From Halarchaeum grantii (lineage in GTDB: Archaea > Halobacteriota > Halobacteria > Halobacteriales > Halobacteriaceae): a stretch of 64,000 nt of DNA. Position 1 is the first letter of the stretch. Each line of letters starts with the position of its first letter. The notes under the pieces were generated by a model. It was not told where the DNA came from, did no database searches, and saw nothing but the letters and a program-made list of their open reading frames with translations. The stretch is taken from positions 186,001 to 250,000 of the forward strand of contig NZ_BMPF01000003.1 in assembly GCF_014647455.2 (NCBI RefSeq), read 5' to 3'. Positions 5,070 through 51,612 of the stretch are shown in pieces. A program made the translations under genes and the position numbers.

Positions 5070-7502
5070 ATGAGTCAGACACAGACCCAGACACGAGAGA
5101 CCGTACGCGACGTCCTCGAGCGCGCCCGCGAGGGCCACGGGGACGTCGTCACCGACGACACGCTCACCGACCTCGTCGACGAGGCCGCCCACGCCCTCTA
5201 CGAGGGGGCCTCCACGGAGGAGGTCTACGAGGCCGCCATCGACACCCTCACCGCGCGCGTCGAGCGCGACCCGGTCTACAAGCGGGTCGCCGCCGACGTC
5301 TTCCTGCAGAAGTACTTCCGCGAGGTGGCCGGCGAGGACGCCACCGGCTACGAGCGCGACCGGACGTATCGCGCCACCTTTCGCGAGAACATCGCGGAGA
5401 TGGTCGAACGCGACATCCTCGACGAACGCATGCTCACGCGCTTCGACCTCGAACGCCTCGCCGACTCCCTCGAACCCGACCGCGACGGCAACTTCGAGTA
5501 CATGGCGCTCGACACGCTCTACCAGCGCTACTTCCTGAAGACCGCCGACGACGAGCGCATGGAGCTCCCGCAGGCCTTCTGGATGCGCGTCGCGATGGGC
5601 CTCGCCCTCGAGGAGGACGACCCGAACGCGCGCGCCGAGGAGTTCTACGACGTCCTCTCGAAGCTCGAGTTCACGCCCTCCTCGCCGACCCTCTTCCACG
5701 CGGGTACCACCCACCCGCAGCTCTCCTCCTGCTACCTCACGACCGTTCCGGACGACCTCGAAGGTATCTTCGACGCGTACAAGGAGCACGCGACGCTCTC
5801 GAAGTGGTCCGGGGGGCTGGGCAACGACTGGACGAACGTCCGCGCCGCCGGCGCGCGCATCTCCTCGACGGGCGTCGAGTCCACGGGCACCGTCCCCTTC
5901 CTCCGCATCTCGAACGACGTCACGGGCGCCATCAACCGCTCGGGGAAGCGACGCGGCGCCGCCGCCGCCTACCTCGCGGCGTGGCACGCCGACTACCCGG
6001 ACTTCCTCGACTTGAAGCGAAATACGGGCGACGAGCGTCGGCGCACCCCCGACATGAACACGGCGGCGTGGGTGCCCGACCTCTTCATGGAGCGCGTCCA
6101 GGAGGACGAGGAGTGGACGCTCTTCAGCCCCGACGAGGTGCCGGAGCTCCACGAGACCTACGGCGAGGAGTTCCGCGAGCGCTACGAGGCCTACGAGGAG
6201 GCCGCCCGCGAGGGCGAGATCGACGAGTACGAGGTCGTGGACGCCGCCGACCTCTGGCGCAAGACCCTCACGCGGCTCTTCGAGACCGGCCACCCGTGGA
6301 TCACGTTCAAGGACCCCTGTAACGTCCGCTCGCCGCAGGACCACGCGGGGACGATCCACTCCTCGAACCTCTGCACGGAGATCACGCTGAACACGAGCGA
6401 GGAGGAGACGGCGGTCTGCAACCTCGGGAGCGTCAACTACGAGACGCACGTCGAGAACGCGGAGCTCGACCGCGAGCGCCTCGGCGACACCATCGAGACG
6501 GCGATGCGGATGCTCGACAACGTCGTCGACCTCTGCTTCTACCCGACGGAGAAGGCCGAGCGCTCGAACATGCGCCATCGCCCCATCGGCCTCGGGACGA
6601 TGGGCTTCCACGCCGCGCTCATGGAGTGCGGGATTCCGATGAACTCCTCGGAGGCCATCGAGAAGGCGAACCGCTGGCAGGAGCTCGTCTCCTACCACGC
6701 GATCCTCGAGTCCTCGCGGCTCGCGAAGGAGCGCGGCACCTACGACTCCTACGAGGGGTCGAAGTGGGACCGGGGCGTCCTCCCGCAGGATACCGTGGAC
6801 CGCCTCGAGGAGACCCGTGGCCGCGAGATCCCCACCGACCGGGAGGAGACGCTCGACTGGTTCGTCGTCCGCGAGCACGTCGACGAGCACGGGATGCGCA
6901 ACTCGAACACGATGGCCATCGCGCCGACGGCGACCATCTCCACGATCAACGGCACGACGCCGTCCATCGAGCCCATCTACTCGAACCTCTACGTGAAGTC
7001 GAACATGAGCGGCGACTTCACGGTCGTCAACGACCGCCTCGTCGAGGACCTGAAGGAACTCGACCTGTGGACCGAGGAGACGCGCGACCGCATCAAGTTC
7101 CACGACGGCTCCATTCAGGAACTCGAGGCGGTGCCCGAGGACCTGAAGGAACTCTATCGCGGCGCCTTCGAGATCGACCCGCGCCACCAGCTCGACCTCA
7201 CCGCCCACCGGGGGACGTGGATCGACCAATCGGTCTCGCACAACGTCTTCTTCCCGAGCACGGACGGGAGCCTGCTCGACGACGTCTATACGCGCGCGTG
7301 GGAGATGGGCGTGAAGACGACGTACTACCTGCGGACGCTCGGTGCCTCCCAGATCGAGAAGTCCACGCTCGACATGGACGAGTACGGGAAGACCCAGCAC
7401 CGCGACGACGACGCGACGGCCGCGACGGACGGCGGTGAGCGAACCGACGACGACACAGAGCTCTGCGCGGTCGAAGACCCGACCTGCGACGCCTGCCAAT
7501 AA
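5070..7502 (+). CDS. nrdA: Ribonucleoside-diphosphate reductase, class I large (alpha) subunit
   Basis: The 810-residue protein reduces ribonucleoside diphosphates to deoxyribonucleotides together with the NrdB partner encoded just downstream. Residues 10-90 look like a reduced ATP-cone-like region. The catalytic residues of the ten-stranded barrel are visible: C221 (LSSCYL) and C450 (AVCNLGS) form the redox pair, and N433, C435 and E437 (SNLCTEI) form the active-site triad. The phosphate-binding segment is PTATISTINGTTPSIEP. The C-terminal tail carries the shuttle cysteines C806 and C809 (CDACQ). The length fits class I NrdA. The nrdB start lies 16 bases after the stop, so the two genes form an operon. 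The family assignment is certain. Confidence 0.96.
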   Translation: MSQTQTQTRETVRDVLERAREGHGDVVTDDTLTDLVDEAAHALYEGASTEEVYEAAIDTLTARVERDPVYKRVAADVFLQKYFREVAGEDATGYERDRTYRATFRENIAEMVERDILDERMLTRFDLERLADSLEPDRDGNFEYMALDTLYQRYFLKTADDERMELPQAFWMRVAMGLALEEDDPNARAEEFYDVLSKLEFTPSSPTLFHAGTTHPQLSSCYLTTVPDDLEGIFDAYKEHATLSKWSGGLGNDWTNVRAAGARISSTGVESTGTVPFLRISNDVTGAINRSGKRRGAAAAYLAAWHADYPDFLDLKRNTGDERRRTPDMNTAAWVPDLFMERVQEDEEWTLFSPDEVPELHETYGEEFRERYEAYEEAAREGEIDEYEVVDAADLWRKTLTRLFETGHPWITFKDPCNVRSPQDHAGTIHSSNLCTEITLNTSEEETAVCNLGSVNYETHVENAELDRERLGDTIETAMRMLDNVVDLCFYPTEKAERSNMRHRPIGLGTMGFHAALMECGIPMNSSEAIEKANRWQELVSYHAILESSRLAKERGTYDSYEGSKWDRGVLPQDTVDRLEETRGREIPTDREETLDWFVVREHVDEHGMRNSNTMAIAPTATISTINGTTPSIEPIYSNLYVKSNMSGDFTVVNDRLVEDLKELDLWTEETRDRIKFHDGSIQELEAVPEDLKELYRGAFEIDPRHQLDLTAHRGTWIDQSVSHNVFFPSTDGSLLDDVYTRAWEMGVKTTYYLRTLGASQIEKSTLDMDEYGKTQHRDDDATAATDGGERTDDDTELCAVEDPTCDACQ

Positions 7503-7518
7503 CACCCACTATACCGCT

Positions 7519-8511
7519 ATGCCTGTCCTGAACCACGACGACGAGCACGACCCGAACAAGATACTGCCCATCGACTACGACTGGGCGCGCGAGTACTACG
7601 AGGCCGGCGTGAACAACAACTGGGTGCCGGAGGAGATCCCGATGCAGGACGACGTCGCCCAGTGGCAGGGCGACGCGCTCTCCGAGGCCGAACGCCAGCT
7701 CGTCGAGTGGAACCTCGGGTTCTTCTCGACGGCCGAATCCCTGACGGCGAACAACATCGTCCTCGCCATCTACGACTACGTGACGGCGCCGGAGTGTCGC
7801 CAGTACCTCCTCCGGCAGGCCTACGAGGAGGCGATTCACACGGACACCTTCATCTACTGCTGTGACTCGCTGGGCTTCGAGCCCGACTACCTCTACGGGA
7901 TGTACGACCGCATCCCCGCCATCCAGCAGAAGGACGAGTTCGTCGTCGACCTGACGCGCGCCGTCGACGACCCCGACTTCGAGTTGGAGACGGAGGATGA
8001 CGTCCGCGACCTCCTGCGCGACCTCGTCGGCTTCTACGTCGTCATGGAGGGCCTCTTCTTCTACGCGGGGTTCGCGATGATGCTCGGGCTGAAGCGCCAG
8101 AACAAGATGGTGGGCGTCGGCCAGCAGTTCGAGTACATCATGCGCGACGAGTCCCTCCACGTGGGCTTCGGCGTCGACCTCATCAACCAGATCCGCGAGG
8201 AGAACCCCGGCGTCTGGACCGACAGCTTCGACGAGGAGATCCGGGAGATGATCACGGAGGCCGTCACCCTCGAGCAGATATACGCCCGCGAGGCCTGCCC
8301 GCAGGAGGTCTTCGGGATGAGCCCCGAGCAGTTCGCGGAGTACGTCGAGTACGTCGCGGACCGCCGCTTCGGCCAGCTCGACATGGCCGAGGAGTACGGG
8401 ACGGCCAACCCCTTCCCGTGGATGAGCGAGCAGGTCGACCTGAACAAGGAGAAGAACTTCTTCGAGACGCAGGTCACCGAGTACCAGTCCGGCGGCAGCC
8501 TCGACTGGTAG
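7519..8511 (+). CDS. nrdB: Ribonucleoside-diphosphate reductase small (beta) subunit, class Ic-type
   Basis: The 330-residue ferritin-like protein provides the metal cofactor that generates the catalytic oxidant for NrdA. The metal ligands are E73 (AESL), E104 and H107 (EEAIH), E177 (VMEGLF), and E211 and H214 (DESLH). The position of the radical tyrosine of class Ia enzymes (Y122 in E. coli) is F111, and the first ligand is Glu rather than Asp. Both are hallmarks of class Ic enzymes such as that of Chlamydia, which use a Mn/Fe centre instead of a tyrosyl radical. The ATG at 7519 is chosen because an open frame upstream overlaps nrdA in another frame. Y322 near the C-terminus probably joins the radical path. 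Confidence 0.95.
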   Translation: MPVLNHDDEHDPNKILPIDYDWAREYYEAGVNNNWVPEEIPMQDDVAQWQGDALSEAERQLVEWNLGFFSTAESLTANNIVLAIYDYVTAPECRQYLLRQAYEEAIHTDTFIYCCDSLGFEPDYLYGMYDRIPAIQQKDEFVVDLTRAVDDPDFELETEDDVRDLLRDLVGFYVVMEGLFFYAGFAMMLGLKRQNKMVGVGQQFEYIMRDESLHVGFGVDLINQIREENPGVWTDSFDEEIREMITEAVTLEQIYAREACPQEVFGMSPEQFAEYVEYVADRRFGQLDMAEEYGTANPFPWMSEQVDLNKEKNFFETQVTEYQSGGSLDW

Positions 8512-49597: not shown

Positions 49598-49993
49598 ATG
49601 AGCGCTGCAGACGTCGCCGCCATCGAGCGGCTCAAGCACCAGTACTGCTACCGAATCGACGACGGCGACTACGCCGAATGGGCGACGCTCTTCACGGAGG
49701 ACGGCCGCTTCGTGATGGACGACGGCACCACCTACGAGGGCCGCGACGAACTCGAAGCGTTCGGCGCGGACGTCTTCGACGACGTCTACGACGAGACCGC
49801 ACACGTCGTCACGAACGCCGTCGTCGACGTCGACGGGGACACCGCCACCGGGCGGTGGTACCTCGAACTCTACCACGAGACGCCGGACGGCGAGCGCGGC
49901 GTCCAACAGGCCACCTACCGCGACAGCTTCGAGCGCGTCGACGGCGAGTGGCGCATCGCGGACGTCGACCTCACGTACGGCGTCGGGCTCTAG
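49598..49993 (+). CDS. SnoaL/NTF2-like protein
   Basis: The 131-residue protein has the cone-shaped alpha+beta barrel pattern: VAAIERLKHQYCYRIDDGDY, AEWATLFTEDGRFVMDDG and the closing RYRDSFERVDGEWRIADVDL type strand. Such proteins are small hydrolases, isomerases or binding proteins; the substrate is unknown. ATG at 49598 is chosen over GTG at 49592. Its stop overlaps the next, convergent gene by 4 bases. Confidence 0.85.
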   Translation: MSAADVAAIERLKHQYCYRIDDGDYAEWATLFTEDGRFVMDDGTTYEGRDELEAFGADVFDDVYDETAHVVTNAVVDVDGDTATGRWYLELYHETPDGERGVQQATYRDSFERVDGEWRIADVDLTYGVGL

Positions 49994-50277
49994 AAGGACT
50001 CCTGGGAGTCGCGCGCCGGGTTCGACGAGCGGTCGTCGTAGTCGGTGCGCCCGACGTGCTCCTCGCCGAGATTCGCGAGCACCGCGTGGTGGAGGTCGCG
50101 CGCGGAGGCGAACGAAGACTCGTCGGTGCGCGCGAGCACCGACTCGAGCGACACCGACGTGCCGTCGTCCGCGCCCACCTCGACGTCGCCCACCGCCTCG
50201 ACGACGGTCGCCCGCTCGGCCGGGAAGTGACACGACTCCGCGACGCGCTCGTAGATGTCGGCTGGCTCGAGTGGCAT
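49990..50277 (-). CDS. Small acidic soluble protein, DUF2795/DUF5789-like
   Basis: The 95-residue protein starts MPLEPADIYERVAESCHFPA and has a compact helical pattern (ERATVVEAVG, then SARDLHHAVLANLGEEHVGR) like the small haloarchaeal DUF2795/DUF5789 families, which are of unknown function. The C-terminus is disordered and polar. The assignment to the family is tentative. Confidence 0.55.
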   Translation of the reverse strand: MPLEPADIYERVAESCHFPAERATVVEAVGDVEVGADDGTSVSLESVLARTDESSFASARDLHHAVLANLGEEHVGRTDYDDRSSNPARDSQESF

Positions 50278-50583
50278 CGTGGTTCGTCTCGACGTTGTGT
50301 CGCACCACAGATAGGTCTTGAGGCCGCCGCGCCGGGCTTCGTCCGTCGCAGTCACCGCGCTCCTCCTCAGCGCACTAGTGTGGCCCCAACCCGACTGGTG
50401 GTCGTCTGTAACTGCGGACCCTCCGGTCTTACTGCTCATCATCTGATTGCTTCAACCCGACTAGGGTTCGTCTGTAACCATAGCCGTTTCGCCGGCCGTG
50501 GCGGTGCTTCGCGGGGGATGTGCTTGAATATTTTCGTCGACCCGCGATAGTGGCCGGTCCCCCGGGGGGTCGATGGTGCGGCG
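50278..50583. other. Intergenic region holding a CRISPR relic
   Basis: The 306-base region between a small acidic protein and the LLM oxidoreductase contains no convincing coding frame. Its centre is the two-repeat CRISPR-like element described separately. An AT-rich GAATATTTTCG at about 50525-50535 lies on the side where a leader would be. Confidence 0.6.
50383..50478 (-). CRISPR. Solitary two-repeat, one-spacer CRISPR relic
   Basis: On the minus strand, 50478-50449 is a 30-base repeat starting GTTACAGACGAACCC and ending GTCGGGTTGAAGC, matching the type I-B-like haloarchaeal CRISPR repeat as I recall it. A 36-base unique stretch (50413-50448), the normal haloarchaeal spacer length, separates it from a second 30-base copy (50412-50383). 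The second copy shares GTTACAGACGA and AGTCGGGTTG and differs at 5 positions (12, 14, 16, 27, 28), like the decayed last repeat of an array. No cas gene lies within the window. Confidence 0.75.
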
Positions 50584-51612
50584 TTAGCGCGGGGTGAGGC
50601 CGACGCCGTCGGCGAGGAGGCGGTGCGAGCGGAGGGCGTCGTCGTGGTCGGCGACGGCGTGCTGGATCATCACTTCCTCGACGCCGAGGCGGTCGGCGAG
50701 TTGGTCGAGGAGGCCGGCGAGCGTCTCGGGGCTGCCGGAGATGGCGCGCGGCCACTCGCCCTCGTCGAGCGTCGCGGGCGTCGGGTCGGGGACGCCGCCG
50801 AGTTCCTCGATGGCGGCCTCAACGGAGGTGATTCGGGCGGTTTCGCCGCGAGCGATGCGCGCGAACGTGGCTTCGGCGACGGCGCGGAGGCGGGCGGCTT
50901 CCTCGTCGCTGGGGGCGCAGACGGCGTTCAGCGCGACCATCGCCTCGAGCGCGTCGACGCCGCCGGCGAGCGCGGAGGCCTCGAAGTGCGCGCGGTAGGT
51001 CTCGACGGCGCGCTCGGCGAACTCGGGGCGGATGAACGCCGCGAAGCAGTACGGGAGACCGAGCTCGCCGGCGAGTTTCGCGCTGGAGGGGCTAGAGCCG
51101 AGCGCCCACGGTTTCGGTGGCGTGGCGTCCGAGCGCGGGATGGCGAGGTCGGCGTAGGGATGGCCGTCGGGGTAGTCGTCGTGGAGGTGGCTGGCGACGG
51201 CTTCGAGTTTCTCGCGGTGGTCGGCGTCGGGGTTCTCGACGCGCCGGTCGGTGCCGAGCGCGCTGTCGACGGCGGGCGAGCCGTTCGCGCGCCCGAGGCC
51301 GGCGTCGATGCGGCCGGGCGCGAGCGCGTCGAGCGCGCCGAACTGCTCGGCGACCTTGAACGGCCGGTAGTGGTTGAGGAGGACGGCGCCGCTCCCGAGG
51401 CGGATCGAGTCGGTTTCGGCGGCGAGGTGGCCGAGCAGGACCTCGGGGGTGGTGCCGGCGAGCGCGTCGCCGTTCCCGTGGTGCTCGGCGACCCAGTAGC
51501 GCGCGTATCCGAGTCGCTCGGCCTGCTGGGCGGATTCGACGGTGTTCGCGTAGGCGTCGCTCGCGGTGCCCTCGGCGGGGACGGGCGAGAGATCGACGGC
51601 GGACAACTCCAT
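50584..51612 (-). CDS. LLM class flavin-dependent oxidoreductase
   Basis: The 342-residue protein is a luciferase-like monooxygenase-type enzyme: VAEHHGNGDALAGTTPEVL, then TDSIRLGSGAVLLNHYRPFK and GRIDAGLGRANGS are typical landmarks of the MsnO8-type subfamily. These use FMN or F420; haloarchaea have F420. The substrate is unknown. ATG 51612 (MELSAVDLSPVPAEGT) is the family start; a longer upstream frame is not coding. Confidence 0.88.
   Translation of the reverse strand: MELSAVDLSPVPAEGTASDAYANTVESAQQAERLGYARYWVAEHHGNGDALAGTTPEVLLGHLAAETDSIRLGSGAVLLNHYRPFKVAEQFGALDALAPGRIDAGLGRANGSPAVDSALGTDRRVENPDADHREKLEAVASHLHDDYPDGHPYADLAIPRSDATPPKPWALGSSPSSAKLAGELGLPYCFAAFIRPEFAERAVETYRAHFEASALAGGVDALEAMVALNAVCAPSDEEAARLRAVAEATFARIARGETARITSVEAAIEELGGVPDPTPATLDEGEWPRAISGSPETLAGLLDQLADRLGVEEVMIQHAVADHDDALRSHRLLADGVGLTPR

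Follow-up and report, generated by a model that had tools for sequence, protein, structure and literature searches.

CreA, the two-repeat antitoxin guide of haloarchaeal CreTA, is devoid of a leader, and its repeats, of which the first is the more decayed, are alike at 11-16 of 30 positions (PMC8501985, PMC9458426). Orphan arrays have been discussed either as remnants of decaying systems or as arrays used in trans (PMC9071438, PMC8616872). The locus described here lies at positions 50383-50478 of a 64,000-nt stretch of the Halarchaeum grantii genome (hereafter, the window). It is a genuine CRISPR locus that now consists of a one-spacer array without Cas proteins. Very probably, it is the remnant of a satellite type I-B array whose cas genes have been lost, i.e., an inactive but structurally near-complete fossil.

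The repeat-spacer-repeat unit and its leader

The unit begins with an intact, leader-proximal 30-nt repeat, R1 (GTTACAGACGAACCCTAGTCGGGTTGAAGC; 50449-50478, minus strand), followed by a single 36-nt spacer (AATCAGATGATGAGCAGTAAGACCGGAGGGTCCGCA; 50413-50448, minus strand) and a decayed terminal repeat, R2 (GTTACAGACGACCACCAGTCGGGTTGGGGC; 50383-50412, minus strand). R2 matches R1 at 25 of 30 positions, the five changes being located at repeat positions 12, 14, 16, 27, and 28. A first-pass annotation had described a 30-base repeat, a 36-base unique stretch, and a second 30-base copy with five changes, and this description is exact to the base. Both arrays of Halarchaeum sp. CBA1220, one of which lies beside the type I-B cas operon of that strain, have repeats identical to R1 (30/30). 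The comparison with known repeats that the annotation had proposed thus shows the 30-mer to be one of them. Moreover, the Cas6-, Cas5-, and anchor-type positions that have been reported in repeats of haloarchaea are retained in R1. Though there is just one spacer between the repeats, its length is regular and lies within the range found in CBA1220 and in the array on contig C9 of the same genome (32-50 nt, mostly 35-37).

R1 and R2 are the only sites in the window that differ from the repeat by 10 substitutions or fewer, and 60 Markov-shuffled windows of 64 kb gave nothing better than 21/30. A genome-wide search with a degenerate repeat pattern returned, besides the R1/R2 pair, only the array on contig C9, with 32 copies, and a single copy on contig C7 (26/30). 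A chance repeat is ruled out by the shuffled windows together with the genome scan. The C9 array (6249-8356, minus strand) consists of 32 perfect repeats (GTTACAGCCGAACCCTAGTCGGGTTGAAGC), which differ from the R1 repeat by one base, and possesses a full leader; it is also stranded, without cas genes found in the genome. The C7 copy (66264-66293, plus strand) is a lone repeat-like 30-mer with no partner repeat nearby, and it overlaps the 5' end of a 97-aa ORF near the contig end.

Upstream of R1, a CRISPR leader of approx. 105 nt (50479-50583, minus strand), unremarked in the first-pass annotation, was recognized by homology to other Halarchaeum array leaders. It is identical at 106 of 108 positions to the leader of the CBA1220 satellite array (this stretch takes in the stop codon of the adjacent oxidoreductase gene), and a DNA search also retrieved the C9 array at its leader end, with 76% identity across 163 bases. 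Conserved blocks are common to the leaders of this unit, the C9 array, the main and satellite arrays of CBA1220, and the main array of the relative G003. In particular, alignment of these five leaders reveals three common blocks, TCGACCCCCCGGGGG, GGTCGACGAAAAT, and GGCCATG, the last of which directly precedes the repeat. The TCGACCCCCCGGGGG block, which varies by one base among the five, is located at 50559-50573 (minus strand). The block GGTCGACGAAAATATT occupies 50527-50542 (minus strand), and GGTCGACG-AAAT within it is conserved in all five leaders. Judging from its position approx. 50 nt upstream of R1, this block (50527-50542; GGTCGACGAAAAT) is probably the archaeal BRE/TATA element of the array promoter. 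The blocks common to the five arrays thus mark a leader with a putative promoter and an integration side next to R1.

The unit is flanked by the same neighbours as in CBA1220, namely a gene of the DUF5789 family (49990-50277, minus strand; PF19102, E 2e-14) and a gene for an LLM-class flavin-dependent (luciferase-like) oxidoreductase (50584-51612, minus strand; PF00296, E 2.5e-40; 97.8% nucleotide identity). The trailer between R2 and the DUF5789 gene (50278-50382, minus strand) is 87% identical to that of the CBA1220 satellite array. As the annotation had stated, neither cas genes nor mobile genes adjoin the unit, and its neighbours are ordinary metabolic genes.

The same site in CBA1220 and the missing cas cassette

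The contig that contains the window is homologous to a 603-kb replicon. Plasmid pCBA1220-01 of CBA1220 (NZ_CP054708.1) shows the same gene order, with flanks approx. 96% identical, and carries between its DUF5789 and LLM oxidoreductase genes (approx. 212.4-214.6 kb) a satellite array in which 34 repeats enclose 33 spacers. The homology of repeat, leader, trailer, and decayed end therefore identifies the same locus in both strains, and the proposal of the first-pass annotation that the unit is a haloarchaeal CRISPR array end is borne out by the 33-spacer array, which has the same repeat, leader, trailer, and site. The annotation had also named a spacer conserved among related chromosomes as ordinary intergenic sequence as an argument against its own reading; the spacer is no such conserved intergenic DNA, since CBA1220 carries different spacers at that site. 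Indeed, the single spacer here and the 33 spacers of the satellite array have none in common, the trailer (old) end included. In six relatives (G001-G004, G006, and G008), the oxidoreductase gene is present without CRISPR or the same neighbours.

The terminal repeats are decayed in both strains and have two changes, T16C and A28G, in common. Because both strains possess these changes, the decay of the last repeat probably goes back to their common ancestor. All nine decayed positions found in the two strains fall outside nucleotides 1-11, the part of the repeat reported to bind Cas6, and the first 11 nucleotides are intact. Hairpin decay in R2 was considered as a mark of lost processing and was dropped, since a hairpin in the repeat is reported to be unnecessary for haloarchaeal Cas6.

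CBA1220 differs from H. grantii in encoding cas operons in trans, one of type I-B and one of type I-D. The I-B operon (cas6-cas8b-cas7-cas5-cas3-cas4-cas1-cas2) is located approx. 170 kb from the satellite array and adjoins a 62-repeat main array with the same repeat; operon and main array together occupy 385.8-399.4 kb. The main array itself (NZ_CP054708.1, 385.8-389.9 kb) includes two near-identical spacers (TGCTCGTCGGCCTCGCC...). The main and satellite arrays of CBA1220 have one spacer (TGTGCTCACCTCTGCCAGGCAGACACGCCCGTTCGA) in common, and for this reason they are consistent with having been served by one machinery.

On contig C3 of H. grantii, both flanks of the CBA1220 13.6-kb cassette of cas genes and main array abut at 74864/74865, with no gap and no ambiguous bases; no obvious direct repeats occur at the ends of this junction. 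Nor does the C3 stretch contain a counterpart of the CBA1220 type I-D cas locus. Genome-wide (3.02 Mb), no match was found to Cas1, Csh2/Cas7, I-B Cas6, the Cas3 HD domain, or the PF10040 Cas6 family. These searches covered four families, Cas1, Csh2/Cas7, Cas6, and Cas3-HD, and relatives or control genomes gave matches for each of them. The I-B Cas6 phmmer search had no positive control in the same search, and its negative is supported by the missing syntenic locus. The cas genes of a functional CRISPR-Cas system were thus not found, in that the searched families gave no match and the cas site is empty. Against the fossil reading, the assembly is a draft in 13 contigs with a completeness of 96.8%, and an unassembled plasmid could carry cas genes.

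In the sister genome G001 (C123:1-12000), I-B cas genes adjoin a region matching contig C3:115979-118939, a neighbourhood unlike that in CBA1220. Because the neighbours of the I-B operon differ between G001 and CBA1220, comparison of the two suggests that the cassette moves within the genus Halarchaeum. For the pair of strains considered here, we infer that the cassette was lost from H. grantii rather than gained in CBA1220, since a satellite array with a leader and a decayed end needed Cas proteins in the ancestor.

Probable reduction to a single spacer and the present state of the array

Most likely, the locus is a fossil of an immunity that was lost recently. In the ancestor common with CBA1220, I-B Cas proteins encoded elsewhere would have added spacers in trans at the satellite leader and would also have processed the transcript of the satellite array. 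In that ancestral state, the leader would drive a transcript through R1, spacer, and R2, and Cas6 would cut in both repeats to yield one crRNA with an 8-nt 5' handle. The cas operon and main array would then have been lost as a single clean 13.6-kb piece. At present, the leader could still start a short minus-strand transcript, and R2 keeps its putative Cas6-binding end; such a transcript would be left without a known processor once the Cas proteins had gone. With no Cas6, Cascade, or Cas3 found, no crRNA, interference, or new spacers would be expected.

The reduction to one spacer would most likely have occurred by deletion between repeats. Spacers are often shed from arrays when identical repeats recombine. 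A long array that contracted seems likelier than one that never grew, because the last repeat looks old. A founder array, in which one spacer was gained before the loss of cas genes while CBA1220 built its 33 independently, is a possible but less probable version of the same history. It would readily explain that the satellite arrays of the two strains have no spacer in common, even at the trailer end; on the other hand, it sits poorly with a terminal repeat that had probably acquired its two shared changes in the common ancestor, which indicates an old array, and with the frequency of spacer loss between identical repeats.

The origin of the spacer was sought as the first-pass annotation had advised, i.e., among haloviruses and plasmids, and at the sensitivities used no match was obtained. 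In particular, with up to three mismatches allowed, the spacer matches nothing elsewhere in the genome that carries it; phage and plasmid records gave no match of note, and IMG/VR gave none with three exact sub-patterns or with three further patterns in which every third base was free to vary. In control searches, the haloviruses HCIV-1, SH1, and PH1 were matched by C9 spacers, and spacers of the CBA1220 satellite array had no phage match; the null is weak because these satellite spacers likewise match no phage. With regard to the CreA trait of partial complementarity between the spacer and a linked toxin promoter, TTC+AATCAGATG (the PAM plus the 9-nt seed) has no exact site and four one-mismatch sites in the genome. 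An orphan array directed against cas genes was rejected, as the spacer has no match at up to nine substitutions in the compared loci, including the CBA1220 I-B and I-D loci and the cas regions of G001 and G003.

The first-pass annotation had left a choice between a fossil and an array served by Cas proteins in trans. The fossil is favoured; Cas1, Csh2, Cas3-HD, and Cas6 are absent from the assembly and the cas locus is missing at the syntenic site. It is quite unlikely that the mini-array still works, with one crRNA against an unsampled virus produced by Cas proteins that are encoded on a missing plasmid or were reacquired through transfer. Such activity would accord with the intact R1, leader (106/108), and 5' Cas6-binding part of R2, with the presence of a second, perfectly kept 32-repeat array, and with the draft state of the genome, yet it is opposed by the cas families not found in 3.02 Mb, the clean cas-free site, and, weakly, by the protospacer searches. 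The well-kept C9 array with its halovirus-matching spacers hints at recent activity. Moreover, the leader has not decayed (2 differences in 108), and the loss is therefore either very recent or not total.

It has also been considered that the unit owes its retention to continued use, either as a guide in regulation or defence (with Cas proteins outside the assembly or another nuclease) or through its leader serving the DUF5789 gene; this is quite improbable. On its own, the proposal that the contracted leader has come to serve the downstream DUF5789 gene as an additional promoter is very unlikely. The gene is on the same strand and now lies approx. 200 nt from R1 instead of approx. 2.3 kb, and the promoter-like leader block is conserved, but a trailer block close to the start of the gene is identical in both strains, and a promoter belonging to the gene itself is therefore probable.

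Comparison with known systems

The significance of the locus, read as a fossil, lies in the pair of close strains that possess one CRISPR locus with and without its machinery. They differ by the clean loss (or gain) of a I-B cas cassette, and a distant satellite array has been cut to one spacer while its leader is 98% unchanged. Such pairs can show the order of CRISPR decay, whether orphan arrays outlive cas genes, and how long they stay re-usable should cas genes come back. As orphan arrays in general are a familiar phenomenon, the case is useful rather than surprising.

The unit resembles CreA in having two repeats around one spacer-like stretch, whereas CreA is accompanied by cas genes as well as a toxin gene and the unit by neither. 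CreA/CreTA is ruled out by the presence of a leader, the integrity of R1, and the 25/30 identity of the repeats. A CreA-like guide RNA (for a CRISPR-regulated toxin-antitoxin or gene regulation) derived from two ectopic repeats would fit two repeats around one spacer outside an array and a degenerate second repeat; with the same three features against it and no cas operon adjoining, such a guide is exceedingly improbable. Mini-arrays of viruses and plasmids (PMC8616872) likewise carry one spacer between two host-type repeats, whereas the unit has no mobile genes and no viral spacer match, and an ordinary array occupies the same site in CBA1220. A viral mini-array was rejected on these absences and on the gene order conserved with CBA1220, even though the contig is homologous to the 603-kb replicon. 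The satellite array of CBA1220 is the same array in site, 30-nt repeat, leader, trailer, and homologous decayed last repeat, and differs in having 33 spacers instead of one. With orphan arrays, the unit shares the absence of cas genes and a length below that of cas-linked arrays; it differs from those described in that both the counterpart with cas genes and the clean junction without them are observed directly, with no Cas protein found in trans. The unit is a plain stranded CRISPR mini-array, i.e., a decaying orphan array of a known kind, for which the before-and-after pair is unusually clear.
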